Shown: positions 2,920 through 59,352 of the stretch, piece after piece
Layout: every line of letters begins with the position of its first letter
How positions within the stretch are numbered: the stretch's first letter is position 1
NCBI RefSeq assembly: GCF_900115345.1
Contig: NZ_FOWC01000001.1
Location: 248,001-312,000 of the forward strand
Direction: 5' to 3'
DNA from: Amycolatopsis rubida
GTDB taxonomy: Bacteria > Actinomycetota > Actinomycetes > Mycobacteriales > Pseudonocardiaceae
Length of the DNA: 64,000 bases
Position numbers and translations under genes: made by a program
The notes under the pieces: model-generated
What the model was told of the DNA's origin: nothing
What the model saw: the letters and a program-made list of their open reading frames with translations, nothing else
The model's database searches: none

Positions 2920-2963
2920 TCGTGAGTGTTGGCACCGGTGAGAACCGGGGCTGGCACTCACGA
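2920..2963. repeat. Dispersed palindrome, TCGTGAGTG family, copy 1
   Basis: Outer arms TCGTGAGTG (2920-2928) and CACTCACGA (2955-2963) are perfect complements. The core is CCGGT-GAGA-ACCGG; the part between is imperfectly paired. It lies between the TlpA-like gene and ccdA, 40 bp from copy 2. Probable stem-loop, possibly a terminator. Confidence 0.8.
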
Positions 2964-3040
2964 CGAGCCCGGGCCGGAACGTGCGCGCCTGCGCACTCGC
3001 CTGGCAAGGTCTCCCGCGCGGCAAGCGCGGTGGTCGGGTC

Positions 3041-3084
3041 TCGTGAGTGTTGATCGCGGTTCTCACCGCGATCAACACTCACGA
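3041..3084. terminator. Dispersed palindrome, TCGTGAGTG family, copy 2 (perfect 20-bp stem)
   Basis: A perfect 20-bp inverted repeat (3041-3060 with 3065-3084) closes on a four-base TCTC loop. It ends 2 bp from the stop of the minus-strand TlpA-like gene at 3087, the position expected for an intrinsic-type terminator. There is no U-tract, as is common in high-GC actinobacteria. Confidence 0.75.
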
Positions 3085-3086
3085 CG

Positions 3087-3668
3087 CTATTTCTCCGCGC
3101 TGAGCCGCTGCACCACCGGAACCAGGTCCGAAGCCAGCACCTGCCGCAGGAACACCGCCGCCACCCGGTGCTGTTTGTCCAGCACCAGGGTCGACGGGAT
3201 GATGTTGCGCGGGTACCCGGACAGCTGAAGCAGCACGCGTCCGGACGGGTCCCAGATCGACGGGTACGTCAGGCCGCGGTCGCGGACGAAGTCCTGGGCC
3301 ACGTCGCGGGCCGGGTCGCGGACGTCGAGGCCGATCACCTGGGCGCCGACCGGGGCGATCTGCTTGCTCGCGGTCTCCAGTTCGGGCGCTTCGGCGCGGC
3401 ACGGGCCGCACCATTGGCCCCACAGGTTGATCACCAGCGCCTTGCCGGGGAAGTCCTCGATCGAGAGCTGTTTGCCCTCGTGCATCAGGTCGTCGCCGGC
3501 CAGCGTCGGGGCTTTCTGGCGTTCGTTCTCCGGGTAGCTGATGTCGACCTTGCCGCCAGGCGAGACGAAGGTGAAGGTGCCACCCGAGACGACCGCGTCC
3601 TTGCCGGTCGAGCAGCCCGTCACGACCAGCGCGGCGGCCATCAGGACCCCGAGCAGCCGCCGTTTCAT
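3087..3668 (-). CDS. TlpA/ResA-like thioredoxin lipoprotein
   Basis: This is an extracytoplasmic thiol-disulfide oxidoreductase, probably the reductant of apocytochrome c CXXCH motifs and a client of CcdA. The 193-residue protein begins [10 protein letters not shown] with a lipobox ending VTGC (C19), so it should be lipid-anchored. The thioredoxin-fold active site is WGQWCGPC (C87, C90), and a cis-proline region IIPST follows near residue 160. The ATG at 3668 overlaps the stop of the upstream phosphatase gene by four bases. The frame remains open further upstream, but there it lies inside the phosphatase gene. Hairpin copy 2 follows the stop. Confidence 0.9.
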   Translation of the reverse strand: MKRRLLGVLMAAALVVTGCSTGKDAVVSGGTFTFVSPGGKVDISYPENERQKAPTLAGDDLMHEGKQLSIEDFPGKALVINLWGQWCGPCRAEAPELETASKQIAPVGAQVIGLDVRDPARDVAQDFVRDRGLTYPSIWDPSGRVLLQLSGYPRNIIPSTLVLDKQHRVAAVFLRQVLASDLVPVVQRLSAEK

Positions 3669-4291
3669 GCGCCGGTCACCTTGGGGTCGGTGGTGCCCGC
3701 GGGCTCGCTGTAGACGATCTCCAGCAGCTCTTCGCCGTCGAACACCAGGCTGGTGAGCGACGCCAGCGAGCACTGCCGCTGCCGCGGGTCGTGCCACAGC
3801 CGCTTCGCTTCGAGGAACCGGCGAAGCGTCCAGATCGGCAGTTGGTGCGACACACACAGCGCTTCGCGCCCTTCGGCCTTTACGCGGGCACGGTGCACCG
3901 CGCCAAGCATCCGGTGTGCGATCTCGACGTACGGCTCGCCCCACGACGGCTTGAACGGGTTCACCAGGTGCGGCCACGCTTTCGGCTGCCGCAGCGCGCC
4001 GTCGCCCACGGCCACGCGCTGGCCTTCGAAGACGTTCGCCGCTTCGATGAGACCTTCGTCAGTGGCGATGTCGAGACGGTGCGCGCCCGCGATGGGTGCC
4101 GCGGTCTCCTGCGCGCGCTGAAGCGGCGAAGCGACGACATACGCGAGGTCGTGCCCAGACACTGCCTCGGCGACAGTGAGCGCCTGACGTTGCCCGCGCT
4201 CTGACAGCCGGAAGTTCGGCAGCCGCCCGTAGAGGATCTTCTCCGGGTTGTGGACTTCACCGTGCCGCAGCATGTGGACGACGGTGGTCAT
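3665..4291 (-). CDS. Histidine phosphatase (phosphoglycerate mutase-like) family protein
   Basis: The 208 residues carry the family's N-terminal LRHGE motif (H9 as phospho-acceptor) and the later SHQLPIW segment holding the second catalytic histidine. The substrate cannot be told from sequence; most stand-alone members are phosphatases rather than glycolytic mutases. It overlaps hemL upstream and the TlpA-like gene downstream by four bases each (ATGA), so all three are translationally coupled. The same gene order (hemL, this gene, thioredoxin, ccdA, resB, ccsA) is known from mycobacteria. A role in the heme or cytochrome pathway is only suggested by that context. Confidence 0.85.
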
Positions 4292-5592
4292 GGGCGAACC
4301 GCCTCAGCCGCCGCGCGCGCCGCCGTGGGCAACGCGGCCTCGATGACGGCGAATGCTTCGTCGTCCATCGCGGCGTTCACGAACCACGCCTCGTACGCGC
4401 TCGGCGGCGGGTACACGCCCGCTTCGAGCAGCGCGTGGAAGAACGCCGGGAAGCGCCACGTCTCGGTGGCCTGCGCGTCCGCGTAGTTGCGTACGGGCTT
4501 GTCGGTGAAGAAGACGCTCACCAGGTTGCCCGCGAACTGCACCGTGTGCGTGACCCCCGCTTCGCTGAGCGCCTTGTCGAAAAGCCCGCCGAGACGCTTC
4601 GCGTTGGCGTCGAGCTTCGCGTACACAGCGTCGTCGGCTTCGCGCAGCGCGGTAAGACCGGCGGCGACCGCCACCGGGTTCCCGGACAGCGTGCCCGCCT
4701 GATAGACGGGACCGCCGGGAGCGAGCTTCGCCATGATGTCCGCGCGGCCGCCGAACGCCGCGGCAGGCAGCCCGCCGGACATCACCTTGCCGAACGTGTA
4801 CAGGTCACCGGCCACACCTTCGAGGCCGAACCAGCCCGCACGCGAAACGCGGAAGCCGGTCATCACCTCGTCCATGATCAGCAGCGCGCCGTTTTCGTGC
4901 GCGAGGTCACGCAGCGCGGCGTTGAAGCCGGCGTCCGGCGGCACCGCGCCCATGTTGCCCGCGGCCGCCTCGGTGATCACTGCGGCGATCTGGCTCTCAT
5001 TCTCCGCAAAGGATTTCCGCAGTGCGTCAAGATCGTTGTACGGCAAGACAATCGTGTCCGCGGCCTGCGCGCCGGTGACGCCCGGCGAAGTCGGCAGGCC
5101 GAGTGTCGCTACGCCGGAACCCGCTTCGGCGAGCAGCGCGTCAACGTGCCCGTGGTAGCAGCCGGCGAACTTGATGATCTTGGCGCGGCCGGTGAAACCG
5201 CGAGCCAGCCGGATGGCGCTCATCGTGGCTTCGGTGCCGGAGTTGACCAGCCGGACCTGCTCGACCGGACCGACCCGGCCGATGATCTCCTCGGCGAGTT
5301 CGACCTCGCCGATCGTCGGCGTGCCGAAGGAAAGCCCGTGCTCCGCGGCCGCGCGGGCGGCGGCCACCACCTTCGGGTGCGCGTGCCCGAGGATCATCGG
5401 GCCCCACGAGGAGACGAGGTCGACGTAGCGGTTGCCGTCTGCGTCCCACAGATACGGGCCCTCGCCCCGGACCATGAACCGCGGCGTGCCGCCGACCGAG
5501 TTGAAGGCGCGCACCGGCGAGTTCACCCCGCCCGGAACGGCCGCCTTGGCGCGTGCGAACCATGCTTTGGACTGCTCGGTGCCAGTGCTCAC
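4288..5592 (-). CDS. hemL: Glutamate-1-semialdehyde 2,1-aminomutase
   Basis: HemL converts glutamate-1-semialdehyde to 5-aminolevulinate, the second step of the C5 heme pathway that begins with HemA (also in this window). The 434-residue protein shows the class-III aminotransferase fold: [10 protein letters not shown] for cofactor phosphate binding, [11 protein letters not shown] for the PLP-ring aspartate, and the Schiff-base lysine K269 in [13 protein letters not shown] chose the GTG at 5592 ([12 protein letters not shown]), which matches the family start. Codons further upstream look like non-coding leader. It heads a heme/cytochrome c operon on the minus strand, divergent from the TspO gene. 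Confidence 0.95.
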
Positions 5593-5777
5593 CGCTCCAG
5601 TCTTGCAAATCCTCCGTTCGGGTGTCGGTGGCGCCCAAGCTGCCACCCGACTGCCATCCGGCATTTCGGCCGGACCGCTCCTGACTTCACCCTCCTCCCC
5701 GCCGCCGCCCTCATGCGAGTAGCCGCGCTACGCAGTAACATTCCCAAGCGCATGGACGGGCGAGCCATGGAGGAGAC
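5593..5777. promoter_or_regulatory. Divergent hemL / TspO promoter region
   Basis: This 185-bp gap separates two divergent genes and must contain both promoters. An AGGAGA ribosome binding site sits just before the TspO GTG at 5778. I could not fix -35/-10 boxes with confidence, and I see no strong inverted repeat. Confidence 0.5.
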
Positions 5778-6263
5778 GTGACGGCGCCCACACACCGCCG
5801 GAACCCGTGGCTGATGCTCGCGGTGTTCTTCGGGCTGGTCGGCGTCATCGCACTGGTCGGCGCGCTGGCCGCGACGACCGCGCCGGACGCCTACAACCGG
5901 TACGTGCTGCCGGAGTGGGCCCTGCCCTCGTCCCTGTTCAGTCCGGTGTGGACGGTTCTGTACATCGTGCTCGCCGTCGCGGGCTGGACTTATTGGCGCA
6001 CCGACGGCGAGAACCAGGGCTTCGCCGCGTACGGCATCGGCCTGTTGTTCAACCTGATGTGGATCTCGCTGTTCTTCGCGGGCGGCTCCACACAGGTCGC
6101 GTGCGTGGACATCGTGCTGCTCGATTTCACCGTGATCGTGACGATCGCATTGTTCTACCGCCGGTCCCGCACCGCCGCGCTGCTGCTCGTGCCGTATCTG
6201 GCGTGGCTGCTCTACACGACGGCGCTGAACGTCGCGATCATCGCGCTCAACGACGTTCCCTAA
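5778..6263 (+). CDS. TspO/MBR family tryptophan-rich sensory protein
   Basis: TspO proteins are five-helix membrane proteins that bind porphyrins and heme and are linked to tetrapyrrole and oxidative-stress control. The 161 residues show five hydrophobic segments and the family signature LPEWALPSSLFSPVW followed by LYIVLAVAGW, which corresponds to the conserved WxPPxxxFxxVWxxLYxxM region. The later NLMWISLFF segment is also typical. Start is the GTG at 5778 behind AGGAGA. It diverges from hemL, a context that fits porphyrin handling. The last four bases overlap the convergent DUF5666-like gene. Function in this organism is inferred from the family. Confidence 0.9.
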   Translation: MTAPTHRRNPWLMLAVFFGLVGVIALVGALAATTAPDAYNRYVLPEWALPSSLFSPVWTVLYIVLAVAGWTYWRTDGENQGFAAYGIGLLFNLMWISLFFAGGSTQVACVDIVLLDFTVIVTIALFYRRSRTAALLLVPYLAWLLYTTALNVAIIALNDVP

Positions 6264-6811
6264 CGCCCCGGTTGCGCCACGATCGCCTGCGCGGTCACCG
6301 AGCCGTCCGCTCCGGTGCGGCCCTGGACGGTCACCGGCTGTCCCGGTTTGAGGTCGCTGAGCTTGCCCGGCTGAGTCACGCCGACCGTCGTGCTGTCCGA
6401 AGTGGACACTGTGACTTCGCTGCCCTGCATGGTCTTCACCGTGATCGTGCTCCCATCGACCTTCTCCACGGTGCCGACCGTCCCGCGACCGCCTGCCGCA
6501 CGTCCGCCGGAGCCGCCCTGCTGCCCAGCACCGGGGCCGGAACCAGTACCGGCGAAGGCCGTTCGGGCCCCGCCGGAAGAGCCGCTCGACGGACCGAACG
6601 CCGCGTGCGTCCACGCGCCGCCGGCGAACGCCAGCGCCAGCACGAGCAGCCCGGCGAGCACGAGCGTCGGCTTGCCGAACGGCCGCGCGACCTGCTTCAG
6701 CTCGGCGGTGAGATCGCCCTGGACGGCAGGCTCGGCAATGAGGTCTTCCGGACGCGGCGCGGCGGGTTCCTCCGGCGGGGTCGGAATGGGCTGGGTGGTC
6801 GACGCGGACAT
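6260..6811 (-). CDS. Membrane-anchored DUF5666-like protein of an ABC efflux operon
   Basis: The 183-residue protein has a cytoplasmic Pro/Glu-rich N-terminus, one membrane segment near residues 48-67, a Gly/Ser-rich linker, and a small beta-rich domain (VGTVEKVDGSTITVKT followed by VTVSTSDSTTV and GQPVTVQG). That domain resembles the OB-like repeats of DUF5666. Function is unknown. It starts 7 bp after the permease stop and is the last gene of a four-gene operon with a MacB-type exporter, so an accessory extracytoplasmic role is likely. It ends convergent with TspO, overlapping by four bases. Confidence 0.75.
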   Translation of the reverse strand: MSASTTQPIPTPPEEPAAPRPEDLIAEPAVQGDLTAELKQVARPFGKPTLVLAGLLVLALAFAGGAWTHAAFGPSSGSSGGARTAFAGTGSGPGAGQQGGSGGRAAGGRGTVGTVEKVDGSTITVKTMQGSEVTVSTSDSTTVGVTQPGKLSDLKPGQPVTVQGRTGADGSVTAQAIVAQPGR

Positions 6812-6818
6812 GACGCTC

Positions 6819-8021
6819 CTACTCGTGCCGGAGGGCGTCGATCGGCCGCAGCCGCGAAGCCCGGTTCGCCGGGAAACTGCCGAAGAAAAGCCCGATCAGC
6901 GCGGACACCGCGAACGCGAGCGCGATCGACGAAGGCACCACCACCGGCTGGATGCCCGCGATGCTGAACCGGCTGCCGACCACGCCGATCAGCACGCCGA
7001 GCAACCCGCCGAACAGGCTCAACATGGTCGCCTCGGCGAGGAACTGGCCGAGGATCGCCGAGCGCGGCGCGCCGATCGCCTTGCGGATGCCGATCTCGCG
7101 GATCCGCTCGGTGACCGTGACGAGCATGATGTTCGTAACCCCGATCCCGCCGACCAGCAGTGAGATCGCCGCGACCGCGCCGAGCAGCACGGTGAACGTG
7201 TCGATCGCCGACGTGCGGGTCTGCAGCAGCTGCGCGGAGTTCTGGATCTGGAAGTCCGGAGTGGCCGAGGCTTGAATGCCGTGCCGGGCGTCGAGGATCG
7301 CGGTGACCTCGGCTTGCGCGAGCCCGATCGCATCGGCGGTGGTCGCCTGCACGGCGATCTGGTTCAGGCCGCCGTAGCCGGCAAGCGAGTTCTGCACCGC
7401 GCTGATCGGGGCGATCGCGACGTCGTCGGCGTTCTGCAGCCCGGTGCTGCCCTTCGTCTGCAGCACGCCGATCACGGTGAACTGGATGCTGTTGACCAGT
7501 ACGTTCTTGCCGACCGGTTCGCCTGCACCGAAGATCGACTGCGCGGTCGTCGGCCCGAGCACGACGACCTTGCGCGCTTGCGTCACGTCCTCGGCGCTGA
7601 ACAGCTGACCGTCGGCGATCTGGCGATTCGTGGTGGTGAAGTAGCTGGGTTCGGTGCCGACGACGCTCGACACGTCGTAGGAGGTCTGCCCGTACGTCGC
7701 GGTCGCGCTGGTGTTCACCACCGGAGCCGCCGCCTTGACGTCCGGCGCGCCCACCGGATCGACCAGCGCGTGCGCGTCCTGCACGGTGAGCGGACGCACC
7801 TGGCTGGTCTGCCCGCCGCCGCGGACCGGCGTCACGTTGACCACGTCGGTGCCGAGCCCCTGGATGCTCGCGGTAATCGCCGCCGACGCGCCGTTTCCCA
7901 CTGCCACCAACAAGATCACCGACGCGACGCCGATGGTGATGCCGAGCGTGGTGAGCACCGAACGCAGTTTGTTCGAGGCGAGTCCGCGCACCGCGAACCG
8001 CATGATCTCGACGAAGTTCAC
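6819..8021 (-). CDS. MacB-type ABC transporter permease (FtsX family)
   Basis: This is the membrane subunit of a type VII (mechanotransmission) ABC system. The 400 residues follow the family plan: one N-terminal membrane segment near 20-42 in the LRSVLTTLGITIGVASV context, a large extracytoplasmic domain (about 45-275), then three C-terminal membrane segments. The IREIGIRKAIGA coupling-helix motif lies between the second and third segments. Start at 8021 overlaps the ATPase stop by four bases. In Gram-positives such pumps export peptides or drugs or work as stress sensors. The substrate is unknown. Confidence 0.93.
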   Translation of the reverse strand: MNFVEIMRFAVRGLASNKLRSVLTTLGITIGVASVILLVAVGNGASAAITASIQGLGTDVVNVTPVRGGGQTSQVRPLTVQDAHALVDPVGAPDVKAAAPVVNTSATATYGQTSYDVSSVVGTEPSYFTTTNRQIADGQLFSAEDVTQARKVVVLGPTTAQSIFGAGEPVGKNVLVNSIQFTVIGVLQTKGSTGLQNADDVAIAPISAVQNSLAGYGGLNQIAVQATTADAIGLAQAEVTAILDARHGIQASATPDFQIQNSAQLLQTRTSAIDTFTVLLGAVAAISLLVGGIGVTNIMLVTVTERIREIGIRKAIGAPRSAILGQFLAEATMLSLFGGLLGVLIGVVGSRFSIAGIQPVVVPSSIALAFAVSALIGLFFGSFPANRASRLRPIDALRHE

Positions 8022-9954: not shown

Positions 9955-10018
9955 GGCCGCAAGATTGCGGGGCTTGCTTAGCAGTCAGCTGTTGGTTCCC
10001 TGTGGGGCAGCTGTGTAA

Positions 10019-12478: not shown

Positions 12479-12522
12479 TCGTGAGTGTTCACGCCGGTGA
12501 GCACCGGCGTCGCCACTCACGA
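12479..12522. repeat. Dispersed palindrome, TCGTGAGTG family, copy 3
   Basis: Outer arms 12479-12487 and 12514-12522 are perfect complements. An inner perfect stem ACGCCGGT/ACCGGCGT (12491-12510) closes on GAGC. The arms are separated by a three-base mismatch. It lies just upstream of hemB and downstream of hemD. Confidence 0.8.
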
Positions 12523-24471: not shown

Positions 24472-24502
24472 GTCGTGAGTGCTGACGATCAGCACTCACG
24501 AC
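24472..24502. terminator. Dispersed palindrome copy 4, bidirectional terminator candidate
   Basis: Perfect 14-bp arms (24472-24485 with 24489-24502) close on a CGA loop. It fills the gap between two convergent genes (HAD phosphatase stop at 24468, RidA stop at 24503), which is where a bidirectional terminator would act. It is a short form of the TCGTGAGTG family lacking the inner CCGGT core. Confidence 0.8.
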
Positions 24503-38343: not shown

Positions 38344-39245
38344 GGCGCGCCGTTCTCGCCGCGGCGTTGCTCACCGCGGGATGCGCCGCGTCCGAGCAAC
38401 CCGCGCCGCCCGCGCCTGCTCCCGCACCGGCGAATGTGGCCTATGTGGACACCAAGGCGACCAGCGACGCGGTGTCCGGCGTCAAAAAGGCCGTGGAGAC
38501 GGCGTTCAGCTACGACTCCACGAAGCCGGAAGAGGTCGCGAAAACCGAGCAGGAGTACCTGACCGGCGGGGCTCGCGCGCAGTTCGACAAGACCTTCGCC
38601 GAGGTCCGCACTGAGCCGGTGACCACGCAGACACAGGTGATCGAAACCGGTCTGGCCGAGCTGACCCCGGAGCACGCGCGGATGCTGGTGGTGGCCGCGC
38701 AGCACAGCAAACGCCCCGACGGAGCCAAGAACCAGAGCGTCGCGCTCATCCTGGTCACCGCGGGCAAGGCGAACGGGCACTGGCAGCTGCAGGATTTGAA
38801 CTTCGACCCGCGCGGAAAGCTCACCGCAGCCCCCAGCCCAGCGGACGGCCTCGCCGCGACCCGGGACGCCGCCGTCAACGCGGCTGTCCAGGACGGCGGG
38901 ATCCTGATGACCATCGACCCGAAGAACATCGACGGCAGCTACGCGAAGTGGGAAGAGGTGGCCGCCGAACCGCTTCTCTCGCAGTTCCGGATGAGCCGCC
39001 AGGAGACCGAGGACAGCATCCGCAAGACCGGGAAGAAGGCGGCCTTCGGCGCGGATTCGACCGCCGCGCTGACCGAACTCAGCCCGGACGGCACCAAGGC
39101 GGCGGCGGTGCTGTCGGCATTGGTGACGACGAGCGGCGGCCAGAACCCGGGGGAAAACCGGCTGCCGGTCCACCTCGACCTCGTCCGGCAGGGCACCGAG
39201 TGGAAGGTGTCCGGGATCCGGGCGTTCTCCAGCGCAGGGTCGTGA
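38340..39245 (+). CDS. Hypothetical lipoprotein
   Basis: The 301-residue protein starts RRAVLAAALLTAGCAAS with a lipobox LTAGC, so it should be a lipid-anchored extracytoplasmic protein, with a Pro/Ala linker after the cysteine. The body has one and perhaps two NTF2-like or Mce-associated-like alpha+beta units (AVETAFSYDSTKPEEVAKTEQEYL with LVVAAQHSK strands), but I do not recognise the family. The GTG at 38340 overlaps the regulator stop by four bases, so it belongs to that operon. Its TGA stop at 39243-39245 is formed by the first arm of palindrome copy 5. Confidence 0.8.
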   Translation: MRRAVLAAALLTAGCAASEQPAPPAPAPAPANVAYVDTKATSDAVSGVKKAVETAFSYDSTKPEEVAKTEQEYLTGGARAQFDKTFAEVRTEPVTTQTQVIETGLAELTPEHARMLVVAAQHSKRPDGAKNQSVALILVTAGKANGHWQLQDLNFDPRGKLTAAPSPADGLAATRDAAVNAAVQDGGILMTIDPKNIDGSYAKWEEVAAEPLLSQFRMSRQETEDSIRKTGKKAAFGADSTAALTELSPDGTKAAAVLSALVTTSGGQNPGENRLPVHLDLVRQGTEWKVSGIRAFSSAGS

Positions 39246-39283
39246 GCGGCAATCCCGGTTCTAACCGCGACCAGCACTCACGA
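39240..39283. repeat. Dispersed palindrome, TCGTGAGTG family, copy 5
   Basis: TCGTGAG (39240-39246) pairs with CTCACGA (39277-39283) and the core is CGGT-TCTA-ACCG. The middle of the stem is mismatched. The left arm supplies the TGA stop codon of the lipoprotein gene. Confidence 0.75.
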
Positions 39284-39308
39284 CGCCACCGCTCGCCGCC
39301 AGCCCTGC

Positions 39309-39350
39309 TCGTGAGGCAATCCCGGTTCTAACCGCGACGAACACTCACGA
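39309..39350. repeat. Dispersed palindrome, TCGTGAGTG family, copy 6
   Basis: TCGTGAG (39309-39315) pairs with CTCACGA (39344-39350) around CGGT-TCTA-ACCG. It is a near-duplicate of copy 5, 26 bp away, sharing the run CAATCCCGGTTCTAACCGCG. The pair looks like a local tandem duplication. Confidence 0.75.
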
Positions 39351-39459
39351 CGCGATCCCGGCACCCCCGCGCAAACTGCCGCGCCCCGCCGCACCGCCGC
39401 ACGCACCGCCGCCCCGCCGCACCGCCGCCCCGCCGCACGCCTCGCCGCCCCGCCGCACA
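39351..39459. repeat. GC-rich CCGCCGCAC-type low-complexity stretch
   Basis: Between palindrome copies 6 and 7 lie about 100 bp made mostly of CCGCCGCACCG/CCGCCCCGCCG words. I see no gene. It resembles a short degenerate tandem array. Confidence 0.6.
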
Positions 39460-39500
39460 TGAGTGGCGTTGCCGGTGAGAACCGGCCCCGCCACTCACGA
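39460..39500. repeat. Dispersed palindrome, TCGTGAGTG family, copy 7
   Basis: TGAGTGGCG (39460-39468) pairs with CGCCACTCA (39489-39497) and the inner core is CCGGT-GAGA-ACCGG. The right flank keeps the family's CACGA. It lies 13 bp from the gpmA stop and could terminate gpmA transcription. Confidence 0.78.
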
Positions 39501-39513: not shown

Positions 39514-40263
39514 TCAGCGGCCCTGGTTCGCCACTGCGGCAGCGGCTTCCTTCGCCGCCTCCGGGTCGAGGTACTCGCCACCCGCCTTGACCGGCTTGAG
39601 GTCCGCGGTCAGGTCGTAGCGCAGCGGGATGCCGGTCGGGATGTTCAGCGCGGCGATAGCGTCGTCGGAGATTCCGTCGAGGTGCTTGACCAGCGCGCGC
39701 AGCGAGTTGCCGTGCGCGGCCACCAGCACGGTGCGGCCCGCCTGGAGGTCGGGGACGATCGCCGACTCCCAGTACGGCAGCAGCCGGGCCACGACGTCCT
39801 TCAGGCATTCGGTCAGCGGGGCCCGGTCGCCGAGGTCGGCGTACCGCGCGTCGCCCGCCTGGCTGAACTCGTCCTTCGGGTCGATGGCCGGCGGCGGCGT
39901 GTCGTACGAGCGGCGCCAGAGCATGAACTGCTCCTCGCCGAACTCGTCCAGCGTCTGCTTCTTGTTCTTGCCCTGCAGCGCGCCGTAGTGCCGCTCGTTG
40001 AGCCGCCAGTCGCGCTTGACCGGGATCCAGTGCCGGTCGGCGGCGTCGAGGGCGACGTTCGCCGTGCTGATCGCCCGGCGCAGCAGCGACGTGTGCACCA
40101 CGTCCGGCAGCAGCCCCGCCTCGGCGAGCAGCTGCCCGCCCTGGCGGGCTTCGCGCTCGCCGGTCTCCGAAAGGGGCACGTCCACCCAGCCGGTGAACAG
40201 GTTTTCCGCGTTCCACGTGCTCTGTCCGTGCCGCAGCAGCACCAGGGTCCCAAGTTCGGCCAT
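39514..40263 (-). CDS. gpmA: 2,3-bisphosphoglycerate-dependent phosphoglycerate mutase
   Basis: This is the glycolytic and gluconeogenic interconversion of 3- and 2-phosphoglycerate. The 249-residue protein has the full dPGM motif set: [47 protein letters not shown], and [19 protein letters not shown]. Length matches family norms. I use the ATG at 40263, which is better spaced from GGCAGG than the ATG two codons upstream. Gpm next to senX3-regX3 is also the mycobacterial order (Rv0489-Rv0491), though here the AKR operon is inserted between. Confidence 0.96.
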
Positions 40264-46665: not shown

Positions 46666-46712
46666 GGATACTGACGGTACTGCCCGCCCCCGCCCCGCCC
46701 CCTCGGACCGTC

Positions 46713-46761
46713 CGTGAGGGCCACCCTCATTGACTCTGACTCCCGCAGGGTTCCCCTCACG
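46713..46761. repeat. GTGAAGGACTC hairpin family, degenerate copy B
   Basis: CGTGAGGG (46713-46720) pairs with CCCTCACG (46754-46761). The interior holds GACTCTGACTC, resembling the GGAATCAGATTCC centre of copy A. Just upstream of murB. Confidence 0.6.
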
Positions 46762-46776
46762 ACCCTCCACCGGCCC

Positions 46777-46912: not shown

Positions 46913-47140
46913 CCCACGATCGAGGCACCCGGCCCCTCCCCCGCAGCCGATGCACCCACGGTCGAGGCACCCCGCCCCTTCCCACCCACGGTCGAGGCAC
47001 CCAGCCCCTCCCCGCCACCGCTGCACCCACGGTCGAGGCACCCAGCCCCTCCCCGCAGCCGACGCACCCACCACCGAGACACCCAGCCCTCCCCGCAGCC
47101 GACGCACCCGACCATCGAGACACCCAGCCCTCCCCCGCAC
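46913..47140. repeat. Imperfect tandem repeat array (about six units of 35-42 bp)
   Basis: Units share CACCCACGGTCGAGGCACCC followed by a GCCCCTCCCCGCAGCCGACG-like part. Starts are near 46913, 46951, 46986, 47027, 47069 and 47107; the last two units diverge (CGAGACACCC). Unit length is not constant, so slippage-type growth is likely. No coding sense. Confidence 0.75.
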
Positions 47141-47160
47141 CCCGATCCGAAGCCCCCCTG

Positions 47161-47217
47161 CGGGCGGCGGGTGCTTGTCAAGGCATCTTTCCCGCCTTGA
47201 CAAGCACCCGCCGCCCG
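47161..47217. terminator. Perfect 24-bp inverted repeat hairpin
   Basis: Bases 47161-47184 are perfectly complementary to 47194-47217; the loop is ATCTTTCCC. The stem contains GTGCTTGTCAAGGC. It is the longest perfect stem in the window. It stands between divergent genes, so it is not an ordinary terminator of either neighbour. Confidence 0.75.
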
Positions 47218-47320
47218 TCAGCACAATCAACCTTCGGGGTGCCCCACACCAGCAACCAGGCCAATGTCGCCCCCAGGCGACGAGCCCCCACCCCCACCCC
47301 CACCCGGTACTGTCCGTTTC

Positions 47321-50874: not shown

Positions 50875-50920
50875 CTCGTGAGTGTTTGCCGCGGTCAGAA
50901 CCGCGACAAACACTCACGAG
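50875..50920. terminator. Dispersed palindrome copy 8, between convergent purU and alcohol dehydrogenase
   Basis: 14-bp perfect outer arms (50875-50888 with 50907-50920), one mismatch, then CGCGGT/ACCGCG closing on CAGA. It fills the gap between two convergent stop codons (50872 and 50924), as expected for a bidirectional terminator. Confidence 0.82.
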
Positions 50921-52033: not shown

Positions 52034-52093
52034 AGACTAGCGTGGACCTCGGCTTATTCCTCGACGCGACCACGATCGGGTGTGACACACGGC

Positions 52094-53636: not shown

Positions 53637-53698
53637 GGTCCCGATTCTCGCGCAAAACTAGGACAGTATCCGACCGGGTATCTGGTCATACTCGTTTT

Positions 53699-54091
53699 AT
53701 GACTCAGCTGCTCCGCCCCGAAGGGCTCGTCCAGTCCCCCGCCTTCGCCCAGGTCGCCGTGGTCCCGCCGGGCGCGACGACGATCTACGTCGGCGGCCAG
53801 AACGCGGTCGACGCGAACGGCGCGCTCGTCGGCGGAACCGACGTCGCCGCGCAGGTCGAGCGGGTGATGGCCAACCTGGAAACGGCACTGGCCGCCGGGG
53901 GCGCGACCGTCCAGGATGTGGTGATGCTGAACATCCTGCTGGTCGCGGACGTCGATCTCGCCGGGGCTTATCCGGCCGCCGCCGCGGCGCTGGCGGGCGC
54001 GACGCCGCCGGTCACCGTCCAGCGCGTGGCCGGGCTGGCGGTACCGGGCGCGCTCGTCGAGGTCAGCGCGATCGCGGCGGTGGCCCGGTGA
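53699..54091 (+). CDS. RidA/YjgF family protein (copy 2)
   Basis: The 130-residue protein has the RidA fold pattern: QVAVVPPGATTIYVGGQNAVDANG, VERVMANLETALAAGGATVQDVV, MLNILLVADVD, and the C-terminal RVAGLAVPGALVEVSAIAAV. As in copy 1, I do not see the usual catalytic arginine block, so it may belong to a Rid subgroup other than RidA proper. The ATG at 53699 is clear. It diverges from the WYL regulator and overlaps the next gene (GTGA). Confidence 0.85.
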   Translation: MTQLLRPEGLVQSPAFAQVAVVPPGATTIYVGGQNAVDANGALVGGTDVAAQVERVMANLETALAAGGATVQDVVMLNILLVADVDLAGAYPAAAAALAGATPPVTVQRVAGLAVPGALVEVSAIAAVAR

Positions 54092-54492
54092 GCGTCGGGC
54101 AGACCAAGGACGCGGGCTGGCAGATCGGCGTCTCGAAGACGATCGGCCGCTCCGCCGAGGATGTCTGGGACTTCATCACGTCCGCGGAAGGCGTGGCGAT
54201 CTGGCTCGGCGAGGGCGTCACGGTCCAGCCCGAACCCGGCGTCGGCTACGAGACCGCCGACGGAATCCGCGGCGAGACGCGCAGCTTCCGCGAAATGGAC
54301 CGGATCCGGCTCACCTGGCAACCGGCCGGCTGGTCGCACGCGACGACCCTGCAACTGGCCGTGCGCGCCAGCGGCCCGGAAAAAGCAATGCTGCGCATTC
54401 ACCAGGAACGGCTGGCCGATGCCGCCGAACGGGAGCGGCAGCGCCGCCATTGGCAGGGAGTTCTCGCCGAACTGATCACCGCGCTTGCCTAG
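54088..54492 (+). CDS. SRPBCC (AHSA1-like) family protein
   Basis: The 134-residue protein shows the AHSA1/START fold: ISKTI-type first strand (VSKTIGRSAEDVWDFITSAEGVAIWLG), VTVQPEPGVGYETADGIRGE, FREMDRIRLTWQPAGW, and a long C-terminal helix ERERQRRHWQGVLAELI. It should bind a hydrophobic ligand, perhaps as a small cytosolic hydrolase or carrier; no catalytic residues can be named. The GTG at 54088 overlaps the RidA gene by four bases. Confidence 0.85.
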   Translation: MSVGQTKDAGWQIGVSKTIGRSAEDVWDFITSAEGVAIWLGEGVTVQPEPGVGYETADGIRGETRSFREMDRIRLTWQPAGWSHATTLQLAVRASGPEKAMLRIHQERLADAAERERQRRHWQGVLAELITALA

Positions 54493-54546
54493 CCCGCGAC
54501 TGACAGAGGACCCTGGAACGCAAGCGGTTCACCGGCAGGAGGCGCG

Positions 54547-55206
54547 ATGCTCTGCGTGTTCGACGTCAACGAGACACTGCTCGATCTGACGGTGCTCGAC
54601 CCGCTGTTCACCCAGCTCACCGGTGATCCGGAAGCGCGCCAGGAATGGTTCACGCTCGCGATCCACACCGTGCTCACGGTGACCGCGGCCGGCCAGTACC
54701 GCGATTTCGCGCAGATCGCCGGGGAAGCCGCTGCCGCCGTGTGCGCGCGGCACGGCCATGAACTGACCGACGCCGAACTGGTGAAGGTCGGCGACGGTCT
54801 GCGCACTTTGCCCGCGCACGCCGACGTCGTGCCCGGCCTGGACCGCTTGCGCCAAGCCGGGCACCAGGTCGTCGCCCTCACGAATTCGCCGCTCGCGACC
54901 GCCGAGGCGCAGTTGCAGAACGCTGGCCTGGCCACGAAATTCGAGCGGATCTTCTCCGCGCAGCAGGTCAGCAGGCTCAAGCCCGCACCGGAGCCGTACC
55001 TCCAGGTGCTGCGTGCCTTCGGCGTCGAACCCGGCCAAGCGGTGATGATCGCCGCGCACGGCTGGGACATCGCCGGGGCGCAAGCAGCAGGACTCCGGAC
55101 CGCGCTGCTCGCGCGTCCCGGAGTCCACCCGCTGCCCGGCCTGCCGGCCGCGACCTACACCGCGGCGACGATGCCCGAACTGGCGGACGCGATCGTCAGG
55201 AGCTGA
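54547..55206 (+). CDS. Haloacid dehalogenase type II family hydrolase
   Basis: The 219-residue HAD protein begins MLCVFDVNETLLDLTVLDP with the nucleophile D6, typical of type II haloacid dehalogenases. ALTNSPLATAEAQL is motif II, SRLKPAPEPYLQVL holds the lysine, and IAAHGWDIAGAQAAGLRTALL is motif III/IV. The substrate may be a 2-haloacid or a phosphate ester. It is 54 bp after the SRPBCC gene on the same strand. Its last 11 bases overlap the convergent reductase gene. Confidence 0.9.
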   Translation: MLCVFDVNETLLDLTVLDPLFTQLTGDPEARQEWFTLAIHTVLTVTAAGQYRDFAQIAGEAAAAVCARHGHELTDAELVKVGDGLRTLPAHADVVPGLDRLRQAGHQVVALTNSPLATAEAQLQNAGLATKFERIFSAQQVSRLKPAPEPYLQVLRAFGVEPGQAVMIAAHGWDIAGAQAAGLRTALLARPGVHPLPGLPAATYTAATMPELADAIVRS

Positions 55207-56209
55207 GGCGCACCAGCATCTTTCCGGTGTTGGCCCCGCTGAGCAGGCCGAGGAAGGCGTCCGGCGCGTTGCGGATACCGTCCACAAAGGTCTCCGAGTA
55301 CTTGATCTCCCCGGACGCGACGAGCGGCGCGACCTCGGCCACGAACTCCTGCATCAGGTGCCAGTGATCCAGCACGAGCAGGCCGCGCATGGTGATCCGC
55401 TTCGCGATGAGCTGCACCAGGTTGCGCGGAGCCGGGGTCGGCTCGGTCGCGTTGTACTGCGAGATCATGCCGCAGATGGCGATCCGGCCGTGCAGGTTCA
55501 TCGACGCGATCGCGGCTTCCAGATGCTCGCCGCCGACGTTGTCGAAGTAGACGTCGATGCCCTCGGGCGCGGCCGCGGCGAGCTGCTCGGCGACCGGTCC
55601 GTCCTTGTAGTTGAAGGCGGCGTCGAAGCCGAGTTCTTCGGTGAGATAGCGGACCTTCTCCGCCGAACCCGCGCTGCCGATCACGCGCTTGGCGCCCTTG
55701 AGCCGCGCCAGCTGACCGACGAGCGAGCCGACCGCACCGGCCGCGCCGGAGACGAAAACCGTGTCGCCCGGCTTGAATTCCGCGCTCACCAGCAGCCCGG
55801 CGTACGCGGTGAGGCCCGGCATTCCGAGCACGCCGAGGTAGGTCGAGAGCGGCGCGACGGAATCGTCCACTTTGACCGCTCGCTTGGCGTCGAGTACCGC
55901 GTGCGTGCGCCAGCCGGCCTGGTGCAGTACGTGCTCGCCGACCGCGAAGTCGTCCACAGTGGACTCGATGACCTCGCCGACCGCGCCGCCCTGCATGGCC
56001 TCGCCGACCGCGAACGGCGGCGAGTAGGACTTCACGTCGTTCATCCGGCCGCGCATCGCCGGATCGACGCTCATCACCACGTTGCGCACCAGGATCTGCC
56101 CGGGACCCGGCTTCGGCACCTCGGTCTCGACGATGTCGAAAGTGTCCATGGTCGGGACGCCGTGCGGACGGGCCGCGAGCCGGATCTCAGTCGCTGTGGG
56201 TGCGTTCAC
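55196..56209 (-). CDS. NADP-dependent oxidoreductase (MDR, PTGR/CurA-type)
   Basis: The 337-residue medium-chain dehydrogenase lacks zinc ligands and matches the leukotriene-B4-dehydrogenase/CurA subgroup: VMSVDPAMRGRMND, MQGGAVGEVIES, the NADPH motif VSGAAGAVGSLVGQLARLKG, YFDNVGGEHLEAAIASM and the ICGMISQYN segment. Such enzymes reduce alpha,beta-unsaturated carbonyls. It ends convergent with the HAD gene. A hairpin (56250-56291) lies upstream. Confidence 0.92.
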   Translation of the reverse strand: MNAPTATEIRLAARPHGVPTMDTFDIVETEVPKPGPGQILVRNVVMSVDPAMRGRMNDVKSYSPPFAVGEAMQGGAVGEVIESTVDDFAVGEHVLHQAGWRTHAVLDAKRAVKVDDSVAPLSTYLGVLGMPGLTAYAGLLVSAEFKPGDTVFVSGAAGAVGSLVGQLARLKGAKRVIGSAGSAEKVRYLTEELGFDAAFNYKDGPVAEQLAAAAPEGIDVYFDNVGGEHLEAAIASMNLHGRIAICGMISQYNATEPTPAPRNLVQLIAKRITMRGLLVLDHWHLMQEFVAEVAPLVASGEIKYSETFVDGIRNAPDAFLGLLSGANTGKMLVRLSS

Positions 56210-56249
56210 CGTCGAACTCCGTTTCGTTCAAGCTGGATTGAAGCGGGGC

Positions 56250-56291
56250 GCGCGCCCCGGCTATCCGGCCAACGGAGAAACCGGGGCGCGC
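56250..56291. terminator. GC-rich hairpin downstream of the SRPBCC gene
   Basis: GCGCGCCCCGG (56250-56260) is perfectly complementary to CCGGGGCGCGC (56281-56291); the loop is 20 nt. It lies 32 bp past the stop of the minus-strand SRPBCC gene. Confidence 0.65.
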
Positions 56292-56322
56292 ATTCCGATT
56301 GTCCCCGGGGTTGTGGCAAGCG

Positions 56323-56757
56323 CTACACGATCTCCGCGAGCTTGCCGAGCACGCCGTCGTAGATCTTCTTCAACCCGCCCGGCGCGAAGGTCTTCTCGAA
56401 GAAGCCGCCGATGCCGCCCGCGCCGTCCCAGCTGGTCTGGATGCGGACGAGCGAACGCTCTCCGGAGGAGGTGACGGTCCAGGTGGTGACCATGCTGGAG
56501 TTCGCGTCGGTCTCGACGAAGGTACCCGGCGACGGCTCGGTCACCGTGGCCGCGACATCGCGCACGCGCTTGGACGTGGCCTGCAGCTTCCAGCTGGCCT
56601 TCGTGCCGGCGCCGACGCCGCCTTCGCTGACCTCGTAGTCGCGGTAGTGCTCGGTGAGCAGCTTCGGCCGAGTCTCGGCGTAGTCCGCGACCAGCTCACG
56701 CACGCGTTCCACCGGCGCGTCGATCGTGCGCTCCGCGGTGGCCGTGACCTTGCCCAT
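56323..56757 (-). CDS. SRPBCC family protein (polyketide cyclase-like)
   Basis: The 144-residue protein has the START-like fold: TATAERTIDAPVERVRELVADYAETRP, VGAGTKASWKLQATSKRVRDVAATVTEP, STMVTTWTV-type strands (SSMVTTWTVTSSGERSLVRIQTSW) and a C-terminal helix. A ligand-binding or carrier role is likely, as in the family; nothing more specific can be read. It is transcribed alone, flanked by palindrome copy 9 upstream and a GC-rich hairpin downstream. Confidence 0.87.
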   Translation of the reverse strand: MGKVTATAERTIDAPVERVRELVADYAETRPKLLTEHYRDYEVSEGGVGAGTKASWKLQATSKRVRDVAATVTEPSPGTFVETDANSSMVTTWTVTSSGERSLVRIQTSWDGAGGIGGFFEKTFAPGGLKKIYDGVLGKLAEIV

Positions 56758-56804
56758 GTCGTTTCCTCCTCAGGGTTCCGCCACCGCAACCCTTGCACAT
56801 GGGT

Positions 56805-56850
56805 GTCGTGAGTGGCGATCCCGGTGAGAACCGGGATCGCCACTCACGAC
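56805..56850. terminator. Dispersed palindrome copy 9 (perfect 21-bp stem)
   Basis: Arms 56805-56825 and 56830-56850 are perfect over 21 bp and close on GAGA, a GNRA-type tetraloop if transcribed on the plus strand. It begins 3 bp after the minus-strand stop of the substrate-binding protein gene (56854). It is the most complete member of the family. Confidence 0.85.
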
Positions 56851-56853
56851 CGC

Positions 56854-57771
56854 TCAACTCAGCCCCTGCTGCTTCAGCCAGTCCTTGGCCACGTCCGCCG
56901 CGGGTTCGCCGTCCGCGTCGACCCGCTTGTTCAGCTCGCGCATGCCGTCCGTGGTGAGCTTCGCGCTGACGGCGTTGACGGCAGTCGCGAAGTCCGCACC
57001 GCGCTCGTCGAGCACCTTCTTGTTCACCGCGGGCACCACGTTCTCGGTGGGCACGATGGTGAGGTCGTCCTTGAGCGCGACGTACTGCGAGTCGCCGACC
57101 AGCGGGCTGACCGAGTCGACCGGGATCACCGTGACCGCGCCGGAGTTGAGCTGCTGCACGCGCGGCCCGGCCTCCTGCACGGTCTGGAAGGTGGCGTTCG
57201 TCAGCTTGTAGACGTCCTTGAAGCCCTGGAAGCACGGCAGCCGCTTCTCGCACTCCGGCGGACCGGCCATGACGACCTTGTCGAGCTTCTTCAGGTCGCT
57301 GATCGACGCGATGCCCTTCGACTTCGCGAGGTCGGCCTTCACGATGTAGGTGTTCTTGTCCTCGGCCGCGGCGTAGTTCAGCAGCCCGACGCCCTCTGGA
57401 GCGAAAAACTTCGCCAGCTGTTCGTGCTCGGCCTTGGCGTCCTTGGTGGCCTCCTTGCCGAAGCCGGTCGTGATCGCCGCGCCCTGGTACTCCGGCAGGA
57501 ACTGCAGCTCGCCGGATTTGAGCGACGGGTAGACCAGCTCCCGCGAGCCGAGGTTCAGCTTCCGGGTGACCGGATAGCCCTTCGCCTCCAGCGCGCTCGC
57601 GTAGATCTCGGCCAGGATCTGGCTGTCGGTGAAGTTGAACGAGGCGACGACGATCGGAGCGCCGCCCTTGCTCGGCGCGGCCGGCTGGTCGCTTCCCCCA
57701 CCGCACGCGGTCAAGCCGAGCGCGGCCGTCGCCAGCAGCGCGGCCGCTCGGATGTTCCGGGTCCAGCGCAC
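56854..57771 (-). CDS. Osmoprotectant-type ABC transporter substrate-binding lipoprotein (OpuC/ProX-like)
   Basis: This is a glycine-betaine/choline/carnitine-type binding protein of 305 residues. The lipobox LGLTAC gives a lipid anchor. FNFTDSQILAEIYASALEAKGYPV, NLGSRELVYPSLKSGELQFLPEYQG and QEAGPRVQQLNSGAVTVIPVDSVSPLVGD match the OpuAC/ProX domain used by OpuC systems. I use the second GTG (57771), 11 bases from AGGAG; the first GTG at 57783 is adjacent to it. It is divergent from two permease genes of the same system. Confidence 0.88.
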   Translation of the reverse strand: MRWTRNIRAAALLATAALGLTACGGGSDQPAAPSKGGAPIVVASFNFTDSQILAEIYASALEAKGYPVTRKLNLGSRELVYPSLKSGELQFLPEYQGAAITTGFGKEATKDAKAEHEQLAKFFAPEGVGLLNYAAAEDKNTYIVKADLAKSKGIASISDLKKLDKVVMAGPPECEKRLPCFQGFKDVYKLTNATFQTVQEAGPRVQQLNSGAVTVIPVDSVSPLVGDSQYVALKDDLTIVPTENVVPAVNKKVLDERGADFATAVNAVSAKLTTDGMRELNKRVDADGEPAADVAKDWLKQQGLS

Positions 57772-57911
57772 GTGTCCCCACACTCCTCAGTTCACTCGTT
57801 AGTGGGAATGGACCCTAACCGCGACCCCCGACAGAAACCACTGGTGAGGAATCCTGCCCGGGGAATCTCACGAGCCGGAATATTGTCGCTCGATCGGGGT
57901 AAGGTCGCGCC

Positions 57912-58604
57912 GTGCACGCGTCCGTGACCCCGCTGCTGGCCGACAGCAGCCGTCCCCTCTTCGAATGGCGGTGGGTCGAACGCAACGCCGACGCGATTCT
58001 GCAGCGGCTCGGCGAGCACATCGCCCTCACCGCGACCGCGCTCGGCGTCGGCCTCGTGCTCTCGCTCGCGCTGGCCACGCTGTGCCTGCGCTACCGCTGG
58101 TTCTATCCGTTCGTGGTCGGCACGGCGGGCGCGCTCTACGTGATCCCGAGCCTCGGCGCGTTCGCGCTGCTGGTCCCGCTGCTCGGGTTCTCCTTCGCCA
58201 CCTCGGTCATCCCGCTGGCGACGTACACGCTGCTGATCCTGATCCGCAACATCGTGACCGGCGTGCAGCAGGTACCGACCGAAGTGCGCGAAGCGGCGAT
58301 CGGGATGGGCTTCACGCCGCGGCGGTTGTTGTGGCAGGTGGAGCTGCCGCTCGCGCTGCCGGTGGTGATCGCCGGGCTGCGGGTGGCCGCGGTGACGACG
58401 ATCGGCCTGGTCACCGTCACGTCGCTGCTCGGCATGGGCGGGCTCGGCTACTTCATCCGGGCCGGCATCCAGACGACGATCCCGAATCCGAGCCCGATCA
58501 TCGTCGGCGTCGTGCTGTCGATCGCGCTGGCCGTACTCGTCGATTTGCTGCTGTGGCTGAGCGAACGCGCGCTGGCCCCGTGGGCGCGGAGGGCCGTTCG
58601 ATGA
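57912..58604 (+). CDS. Osmoprotectant-type ABC transporter permease 1 (OpuCB/ProW-like)
   Basis: The 230-residue permease has about five membrane helices and the binding-protein-dependent transport signature: IALTATALGVGLVLSLALATL, EVREAAIGMGFTPRRLLWQVELPLALPVVIAGLR (EAA loop), and SLLGMGGLGYFI. It resembles OpuCB/OpuCD. The start is the GTG at 57912. It overlaps permease 2 by four bases (ATGA). No ATP-binding subunit lies in this cluster. Confidence 0.92.
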   Translation: MHASVTPLLADSSRPLFEWRWVERNADAILQRLGEHIALTATALGVGLVLSLALATLCLRYRWFYPFVVGTAGALYVIPSLGAFALLVPLLGFSFATSVIPLATYTLLILIRNIVTGVQQVPTEVREAAIGMGFTPRRLLWQVELPLALPVVIAGLRVAAVTTIGLVTVTSLLGMGGLGYFIRAGIQTTIPNPSPIIVGVVLSIALAVLVDLLLWLSERALAPWARRAVR

Positions 58605-59314
58605 GCTTTTTCGAGCAGCTGAGCCACTGGCTCGCCGACCCGAACCGCTGGAGCTGGACCGATCCGGCCGGGATTCCGTTCCGGACTGTGCAGCATCTGT
58701 GGTTTTCCGCGCTGGCACTGGCGATCTCGATCATCCTGACGGTGCCGCTCGCGCTGTGGCTCGGGCACTACCGGCGCGGCCAGTTCCTGGCGAGCAGCGC
58801 GGTGAACATCGGCCGCGCGATCCCGAGTTTCGGGCTGATCATCCTGTTCTGGTTCCTGGCCAGCAGGTGGGGCGCGAACACGGACTTCTGGCCGCTGCTG
58901 CTCGCGCTCGTCGCGCTGGCGCTGCCGCCGCTGTTCACCAACACCTACGCGGGCGTGGTGCAGGTGGAACAGGACGTCGTCGACGCGGCGCGCGGCACCG
59001 GGTACCGCGAATGGCAGATCATGCTGCGTGTGGAACTGCCGCTGTCGTCGCCGGTGATCGTGGCCGCCGCGCGAGTGGCGTTCCTGCAACTGATCGCGAC
59101 GGTCGCGATCGGCGCGATCGTCAACGACGGCGGCGGTCTGGGCCGCTACATCGTGGACGGTTTCGCCCTCGGCGAGCAGGGCCACGGCGAAATCTTCGGC
59201 GGCGGGGTGGCGGTGGTGGTGCTGGCGCTGGTGTGCGAGGGGGTGTTCGCGCTGCTGACCAAACTGGCCACGCCTCGCGGGTTGGCGCTCCAGCAGGCCC
59301 GTCGGGACTCGTGA
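58601..59314 (+). CDS. Osmoprotectant-type ABC transporter permease 2
   Basis: This second permease of the same importer has 237 residues. It has five to six membrane helices, FSALALAISIILTVPLALWLG, GRAIPSFGLIILFWFLA, the EAA loop DVVDAARGTGYREWQIMLRVELPLSSPVIVAAAR, and IVNDGGGLGRYIVDGF. The ATG at 58601 overlaps permease 1. Two different permeases side by side are typical of OpuC-type systems. Its stop TGA (59312-59314) is part of the left arm of palindrome copy 10. Confidence 0.92.
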   Translation: MSFFEQLSHWLADPNRWSWTDPAGIPFRTVQHLWFSALALAISIILTVPLALWLGHYRRGQFLASSAVNIGRAIPSFGLIILFWFLASRWGANTDFWPLLLALVALALPPLFTNTYAGVVQVEQDVVDAARGTGYREWQIMLRVELPLSSPVIVAAARVAFLQLIATVAIGAIVNDGGGLGRYIVDGFALGEQGHGEIFGGGVAVVVLALVCEGVFALLTKLATPRGLALQQARRDS

Positions 59315-59352
59315 GTGTTTATGCCGGTTCTCACCGGGATAAACACTCACGA
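59309..59352. terminator. Dispersed palindrome copy 10, overlapping both convergent stop codons
   Basis: Arms 59309-59322 and 59339-59352 are perfect over 14 bp, then one mismatch and CCGGT-TCTC-ACCGG. Left arm carries the permease TGA. The last codons and stop (59331-59333) of the convergent lyase-like gene lie inside it. Confidence 0.82.

Follow-up and report, generated by a model that had tools for sequence, protein, structure and literature searches.

We analysed a 64,000-nucleotide window of the Amycolatopsis rubida genome (NCBI RefSeq assembly GCF_900115345.1, contig NZ_FOWC01000001.1, positions 248,001 to 312,000 of the forward strand), which carries ten copies of a short dispersed palindrome. 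The original prediction, made from the letters of the window, had described these copies as a family of intergenic hairpins with shared arms, a shared core and variable bases that stay paired. All ten copies and the family are real, while several details of the core and loop were wrong. A covariance model built from 21 copies of the A. rubida genome, seven of them window copies, found all ten at the predicted places, on both strands, with E values of at most 1.1e-5, and thereby recovered also the three window copies absent from its training set. The copies, in window coordinates, are the following.

2920..2963: copy 1, exact arms, 16 of 20 Watson-Crick pairs; codirectional genes, 123 nt past the stop of the upstream gene
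3041..3084: copy 2, exact arms, 20 of 20 pairs; 2 nt past the stop of an AhpC/TSA-domain gene (3087-3668, minus strand)
12479..12522: copy 3, exact arms, 17 of 20 pairs; codirectional genes, 52 nt past a stop
24473..24501: short copy of 29 bp, filling the gap between convergent HAD (plus strand) and L-PSP (minus strand) genes
39240..39283: copy with one arm mismatch, whose TGA doubles as the stop codon of a plus-strand gene (38436-39245)
39309..39350: decayed copy of 42 bp with two arm mismatches
39457..39500: copy with a decayed left arm (two mismatches); 13 nt past the stop of a His_Phos_1 gene (39514-40263, minus strand)
50876..50919: copy with exact arms between convergent formyltransferase (plus strand) and zinc-ADH (minus strand) genes, 3 and 4 nt from their stops
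56806..56849: copy with exact arms, 20 of 20 pairs; 4 nt past the stop of an OpuAC gene (56854-57771, minus strand)
59309..59352: copy with exact arms, whose TGA doubles as the stop codon of a plus-strand ABC-permease gene (58601-59314)

Both arms, expected to be shared throughout, are exact in seven of the ten, and the mismatches fall in 39240, 39309 and 39457. These three clustered copies (39240-39500) all have decayed arms, and their layout differs in the relatives examined. The predicted positions were adjusted for, among others, the ends of the short copy and the start of the third cluster copy, which had been put at 39460. The term intergenic was nearly right: at 39240 and 59309 the arm supplies, with its TGA, the stop codon of the upstream gene, so that copy and gene share 6 nt. 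The short copy reads as a 15-bp internal deletion, and relative G260 retains the full 44-bp form. The proposed core did not hold as a shared feature: CCGGT-GAGA-ACCGG, or its reverse form with a TCTC loop, is exact in only four of the nine long copies (2920, 39457, 56806 and 59309); in the rest, the loop is GAGC, TCTA or CAGA, or the stem is CGCGG. Copies 1 and 3, once singled out as misfits to a terminator, belong to the same family and simply occupy its minority context, between codirectional genes.

The repeat unit is 44 bp long and consists of TCGTGAGTG, a variable 8-nt word, GG, a centre, CC, the complementary word and CACTCACGA. The centre is usually TT(CT or AG)AA; read together with its neighbours, the middle of the unit is GGT, a four-base loop region and ACC. 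In the first set of loci, 146 of 156 copies measure exactly 44 bp. On either side, 162 of 163 copies have C or G as the base next to the arm (the 163 are non-redundant exact-arm copies from several species, a set that excludes six loci of other taxa, L021, L059, L074, L087, L091 and L127, and includes the Rhodococcus and Rhodococcoides loci), and these two flanking bases pair with each other in 70% of cases versus 49% expected; counting them, the unit is 46 bp. The 156 length-scored copies and the wider placement set described below rest on the same choice of loci. The median hairpin energy of 35 A. rubida copies is −36.5 kcal/mol.

The pattern TCGTGAGTG-N(4-34)-CACTCACGA has 100 exact-arm matches in the A. 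rubida genome (9.87 Mb, 45 contigs), and its reversed control has none. In 1.264 Mb of this genome, 76 of 77 exact 9-mer arms lie inside complete copies. Together, these two results place the family far beyond chance. The single solitary arm resembles a decayed copy, and the idea that solitary arms are the ends of a larger transposon was therefore rejected. The covariance search of the whole genome scored 150 candidates, and its copy count is thus a lower bound. Rfam gave no match above the gathering score in the window; we recognised no account of this family in the open-licence literature, and the papers containing the 9-mer arm, among the matches listed, are unrelated by title.

Among 200 sampled genomes of the Pseudonocardiaceae, 80 carry at least one copy, distributed over 22 of 46 genera, with 0 to 453 copies per genome. 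The reversed control was zero in all but six of these genomes, five having one or two matches and G028 having 32. The latter genome has 69 copies, and closely spaced neighbouring copies could cause its control matches. At the order level, matches were obtained in 30 of 397 sampled genomes; 26 of these belong to the same family, and the four outside it have 1 to 5 copies. In a scan of named genomes, the matches listed include Amycolatopsis, Kibdelosporangium, Lentzea, Prauserella, Qaidamihabitans, Haloechinothrix, Saccharopolyspora and others, together with Rhodococcus rhodnii and Rhodococcoides kyotonense. With the spacing set to 22-30, A. rubida has 98 copies, while its relatives have 204 (G210), 111 (G213), 69 (G260), 31 (G231), 29 (G241), 25 (G219), 14 (G228), 2 (G207) and 1 (G218). 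In most genomes, the half-words resemble one another more than they resemble those of other genomes.

The claim that the variable bases stay paired was borne out. In the 163 copies, the inner 11 pairs include on average 9.57 Watson-Crick pairs, versus 5.55 ± 0.12 with shuffled partners; in the 21 A. rubida copies, 95.5% of the variable cells are paired versus 85.5 ± 1.0% in shuffles, and two-sided changes number 41 versus 15.3 ± 3.1. A cruder count, the number of pairs with any two-sided change, does not separate the data from the shuffles (7 versus 6.0, reached by 98 of 500). The prediction had called the loop a GNRA tetraloop. GAGA/TCTC is found in just 10 of the 163 loops, the commonest being TAGA/TCTA (132/163); in the 21 A. 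rubida copies the two types are found in 10 and 8 copies, respectively.

Covariation had also been taken to indicate selection for structure, and here the paired changes are real while the explanation appears too simple. If selection acted on the RNA, G-U pairs should exceed A-C pairs in the transcribed strand; among 60 codirectional copies, we counted 26 G-U and 27 A-C in the RNA sense (p 1.0). The orientation of the loop relative to transcription is equally unbiased, with a purine at the centre in 26 and a pyrimidine in 33 of the 60. For convergent copies neither strand alone is the sense strand; on the plus strand they have 49 A-C and 31 G-U. Selection for a GNRA loop or for the RNA sense was accordingly rejected, codirectional copies having no such bias. 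Of the traits of a canonical intrinsic terminator, the 44-mer has the GC-rich hairpin near the stop and lacks the U-tract. Since there is no G-U excess, no loop sense and no U-tract, the pairing looks like the product of birth and rewriting at the DNA level, followed by decay.

To place the copies relative to genes, we called genes with our own codon-usage script, independently of the annotation. In an unbiased sample of 1.26 Mb of A. rubida, considering copies with at most one arm mismatch, 27 of 39 copies lie between convergent genes (including one that the script called inside a gene), 12 between codirectional genes and none between divergent genes. The available spaces are 205 convergent, 718 codirectional and 206 divergent (Fisher p 1e-12, or p 2e-10 by base pairs); this test counts one copy per space, though three pairs of copies share a space. 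A wider, pattern-selected set of 182 copies includes 113 convergent and 60 codirectional ones; it comprises 44-bp copies with no more than one arm mismatch and skips those that lie within called genes or do not have neighbours on both sides. Of the 156 copies of the first set of loci, 12 at locus edges carry no context class. In the wider set, the nearest upstream stop is at most 20 nt away in 134 of 173 copies, and in 47 of those 134 it is the TGA of the arm. Furthermore, the gap remaining beside 25 convergent A. rubida copies has a median of 9 bp, while 179 copy-free convergent gaps have a median of 56 bp. Among the codirectional A. rubida copies, the skew towards the upstream stop was not significant (9/12, p 0.15).

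The occupancy of orthologous gaps changes often. Of the 80 genomes of the genus, 30 were compared at the formyltransferase/ADH gap (window 50876): nine have 44-mers with different words, three have derivatives, four have other hairpins (two of an unrelated CCAATGTGGCATTGG repeat and two conventional) and fourteen, with gaps of 18-22 bp, have no evident hairpin. When the gap states were placed on a tree built from the flanking coding DNA, its well supported branches required no fewer than five changes for the 44-mer, whose presence is barely clustered (7 changes versus a shuffled mean of 8.0). Gap state also differs within the supported sister pairs L149/L155 and L160/L168. In the near relatives at L144 and L145, a palindromic repeat, CCCAATGTGGCATTGGG, occupies this gap; no match to its core turned up in 1.26 Mb of the A. 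rubida genome.

A similar picture emerged from a 410-kb stretch with 16 A. rubida copies, where gap states were sorted by eye. In G241, 15 sites were alignable: five hold the family or a derivative, one holds a second palindrome family (family B, described below) and nine hold neither. In G260, the 13 alignable sites comprise six with the family or a derivative, two with family B, two with other sequence and three without. Family B thus replaces the first family in three orthologous gaps of this comparison. Within the window, the position of copy 3 is occupied in four relatives by other sequence that starts like family B, and the 59309 copy is missing in three relatives, which retain just TCGTGAG. 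At the own_28826 locus, the words of A. rubida and G260 differ although their junction is the same, and G241 is empty, with only GA left. A. rubida and G241 share a derived end, CACTCACAA, at own_379183, with two stem base pairs swapped on both arms. G210 has a private copy (L182:7414) in otherwise different intergenic DNA, which was not scored as an insertion. A clean insertion with target duplication was sought and no case was found, the TCGTGAG of the three empty 59309 relatives fitting a deletion equally well. The family therefore shows recurrent gain or loss and exchange with other palindromes or ordinary terminators in the same slots.

At the 3' end of the OpuAC gene (56806), 30 genomes were fetched and a hairpin was present in all 15 with alignable flanks (L203-L217, whose flanks did not align, were excluded). 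Three of these hairpins belong to the 44-mer family; the others, some of which have short T runs behind them, are built on CCCGGGAGTGGCGG, CCGTGAGTGGCGG or CGGGCCGCCCGGGG stems. A slot that is conserved while its sequence is not is the best hint of function in our data.

These results bear on whether the element does anything for its host. It could be a purely selfish or neutral mobile palindrome, for which 3' ends and convergent gaps are only the harmless insertion sites. Several observations fit: the empty divergent gaps of the A. rubida sample (0/39), mismatches without RNA-sense bias, as if copies were born perfect and then decayed, the lack of a U-tract, the hairpin-free state of 14 of 30 formyltransferase/ADH gaps and the spread from 1 to 204 copies among nine relatives. 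The weak skew of codirectional copies also leaves room for this explanation. Nonetheless, copies lie close against stop codons and leave little of the short convergent gaps free, the same slots elsewhere hold ordinary terminators or other palindromes, and the OpuAC hairpin was kept in every alignable genome; we regard a purely selfish element as unlikely, though deserving serious consideration.

The inner words of copies at the same junction were then compared between genomes. Over 15 same-junction pairs, the mean divergence is 0.067 in the outer arms, 0.128 in the flanks and 0.30 in the inner nine positions; these means are only descriptive, because the 59309 locus contributes ten of the pairs and the distant G207 is a partner in four. 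Locus by locus, divergence of the inner arms exceeds that of the flanks in four of six cases (59309, own_28826, own_343978 and own_379183), and thus the words seem to have been rewritten rather than to have drifted base by base.

This pattern is relevant to the alternative that the 44-mer is a dedicated terminator family evolving in place, by selection on the RNA and ordinary compensatory mutations. The strong pairing of the variable positions agrees with it, as do the hairpin after OpuAC, kept even where the outer arms changed, and the loci at which words are unchanged or nearly so (two of six, and own_233952 in G260). On the other hand, the outer arms and the length are conserved far beyond what a hairpin needs, inner divergence exceeds that of the flanks at most loci, words are common within genomes and mostly different between them, mismatches and loops have no RNA-sense bias, and a single gap underwent several state changes. 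Taken together, these points make evolution in place improbable.

How rewriting could occur is suggested by G210, of whose 204 copies the first 50 were studied. All 50 have TTCTAA or TTAGAA at the centre, and their half-words are cohesive, with 36 distinct words per 100 halves versus a shuffled minimum of 58. In 13 copies the arms differ at three or more of eight positions, and five of the 13 combine two exact words of other copies, whereas random mutation of one arm yields an existing word in 0.5 to 3.6% of cases. It is as if halves had been exchanged at the centre. The A. rubida genome gives no such signal: block-wise chimeras were rejected there, halves matching other copies no better than column-mixed words do (0.92 versus 0.99 at ≥8/9).

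On this basis, one may tentatively propose a mobile palindrome free of any transposase of the kind known for repetitive extragenic palindromes (REPs), whose half-sites would exchange between dispersed copies at TT(CT/AG)AA and which hosts would swap for other elements as gene-end terminators. The exchange might proceed via a hairpin nuclease plus repair, or via a dedicated recombinase; it would rewrite both arms in one step while the strands stay complementary, and covariation would then arise from DNA copying and not from RNA selection. As a whole, we consider this proposal rather doubtful.

The same features could be those of a protein-recognition site, with a nucleoid protein, gyrase or a site-specific recombinase reading the 9-mers and TT(CT/AG)AA and the 3' position being secondary. 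The arms are almost private to the element, the base outside them is nearly fixed as C or G and tends to pair, and in G210 the centre is constant and half-words act as units. A protein reading the duplex would, however, leave the complementarity of the variable middle unexplained; two relatives have only one or two copies, the A. rubida centre is not invariant, and no candidate protein emerged. We judge such a site quite improbable as the main explanation.

In size and placement the 44-mer is REP-like, as the prediction had suggested, and in use it is probably terminator-like. According to the available text of Di Nocera 2013 (PMC3733652), REPs include GTAG- and CGTC-tagged classes, and CGTC REPs apparently also occur without a dedicated transposase. 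As described there, REPs are short, dispersed, high-copy palindromes of convergent and codirectional gaps, 3' of coding regions, with several families per genome; their range is 20-40 bp, so that the 44-bp unit is slightly longer and otherwise fits. Unlike the REPs described in that text, the 44-mer has no tag, is nearly perfectly symmetric, has a variable middle between invariant ends and comes with no Y1-transposase match. The main text of PMC3733652 does not mention actinobacteria, Amycolatopsis, Saccharopolyspora or Rhodococcus.

A classical REP would be mobilised by a REP-associated tyrosine transposase (RAYT, of the Y1/HUH type), and the original prediction had proposed looking for one in the genome. 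Size, palindromy, post-gene placement and clustered copies do resemble REPs as presented in the available text of PMC3733652. The search for PF01797 gave no match in A. rubida, for which a RAYT/REP origin was consequently rejected, and none in the other ten sampled genomes of the genus; the same search was positive in 5 of 14 control genomes. In the family, PF01797 occurs in 3 of 30 genomes with at least ten copies versus 39 of 170 others, and no unpaired GTAG or CGTC tag was present in the six flanking bases per side of the 163 copies. Mobilisation by a RAYT is therefore extremely improbable.

Copies that come, go and swap with other hairpins at gene ends suggest that the element spreads and acts as a signal where genes end. 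Building on the computed family, ends, length, placement, same-slot replacement and two-arm word differences at four of six loci, we favour, with a rough probability of 0.54, a REP-like palindrome that does not depend on a RAYT, whose spread and rewriting take place at the DNA level, and which persists at 3' ends as a bidirectional hairpin lacking a U-tract. Under this proposal, a non-coding, non-autonomous 44-bp palindrome would spread and become homogeneous within genomes without a RAYT/Y1 transposase, and copies would be retained mainly at gene 3' ends. From either strand, each copy could form a very stable hairpin and, with no U-tract, end or protect transcripts, either as a bidirectional terminator or as a barrier to 3' exonucleases, a role likely to be most useful where convergent genes nearly touch. 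New copies might be made by hairpin-mediated insertion, or by conversion between copies with half-arm exchange at the centre. Both the termination or protection of transcripts by the 44-mer and its copying agent are what we infer from these patterns.

A number of results weigh against this proposal. Past the hairpin there are 1.24 T per 10 nt, versus 1.52 in random 10-mers of the genome, that is, no U-tract; 9 of the 182 copies of the wider set lie between divergent genes; and the element is dispensable at the formyltransferase/ADH gap, as 14 of 30 genomes have no evident hairpin there. Gains at that gap replace about 13 bp and are not simple insertions, no target-site duplication was seen by eye at the empty sites read, where clean cases are few, and a deletion using 2-bp microhomology could also account for the empty own_28826 site. 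The case for rewritten words comes from few loci, with 59309 supplying 10 of the 15 same-junction pairs. Words are nearly unchanged at 56806 (0.00 versus 0.12 in the flanks) and own_389640 (0.06 versus 0.05), and are identical, with an altered loop, in A. rubida and G260 at own_233952, which is outside the flank filter of the divergence comparison. Finally, no mobilising enzyme was found by the PF01797 search of the A. rubida genome.

Gene-end hairpins that recur as a family have a possible parallel, perhaps the nearest among actinobacteria: the TRIT elements of the RNIE paper are reportedly repeated, sequence-conserved hairpins at the gene 3' ends of an actinobacterium. The 44-mer has lineage-specific words and turnover. 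TRIT is named as a terminator model of Mycobacterium tuberculosis in the available text of PMC3526491. In Streptomyces clavuligerus, 3' ends include a strongly folded, U-lacking class, which is discussed in terms of I-shaped terminators or Rho-dependent transcript ends (PMC8269248, available text), and U-poor or U-lacking structured classes of transcript ends are described in Streptomyces (PMC12207403, available text). These U-lacking structured ends, to the extent that the available texts of PMC8269248 and PMC12207403 describe them, make U-less 3'-end hairpins plausible for the 44-mer. The S. clavuligerus ends, as presented in the available text of PMC8269248, are a structural class of mapped ends, whereas the 44-mer is a repeated sequence family. 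With miniature inverted-repeat transposable elements (MITEs), the 44-mer shares fixed ends and length and presence/absence polymorphism at orthologous sites. MITEs and REPINs are non-autonomous dispersed repeats built on inverted repeats; the 44-mer differs from them in having no internal cargo, no target duplication seen and no parent transposon found.

The Pseudonocardiaceae are rich in antibiotic producers. If our reading is true, REP-like dispersed palindromes extend to this family, without a detectable RAYT and swapping in gene-end slots. It would also be a warning that paired changes in a repeated hairpin can stem from copying of the DNA and not from RNA selection alone; here, three controls point to a DNA-level origin of the paired changes, namely orthologues at the same junction, G-U versus A-C mismatches and loop sense. 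Furthermore, sister species with and without a hairpin at the same gene pair offer a natural experiment on transcript ends and convergent genes in GC-rich actinobacteria.

Other repeats were also noted. At about 47093-47290, the window has a high-copy, dispersed, MITE-like repeat of about 195 bp, with inverted ends GGCACCCCGAAGC / GCTTCGTATCGGGGTGC (in the A. rubida copies) around a CTTGTCAAGGC hairpin; among the matches listed, it has multiple matches in six of seven relatives. An imperfect copy of palindrome family B (CCGTGARGGG...CCCYTCACGG, mostly 51 bp) was recognised by eye at about 46711-46763. Exact-arm copies of family B number 24 in A. rubida and 58 in G228, and the family is present in 7 of 20 sampled genomes, all of the same genus. 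Other near-perfect 44-bp palindromes of unrelated sequence also occur, with CCTCTGGATGCGGTACTTGC... in Amycolatopsis (L081, L084, L100 and L105) and GCGATTTCAATGGAAATC... in Saccharopolyspora hirsuta (L078).

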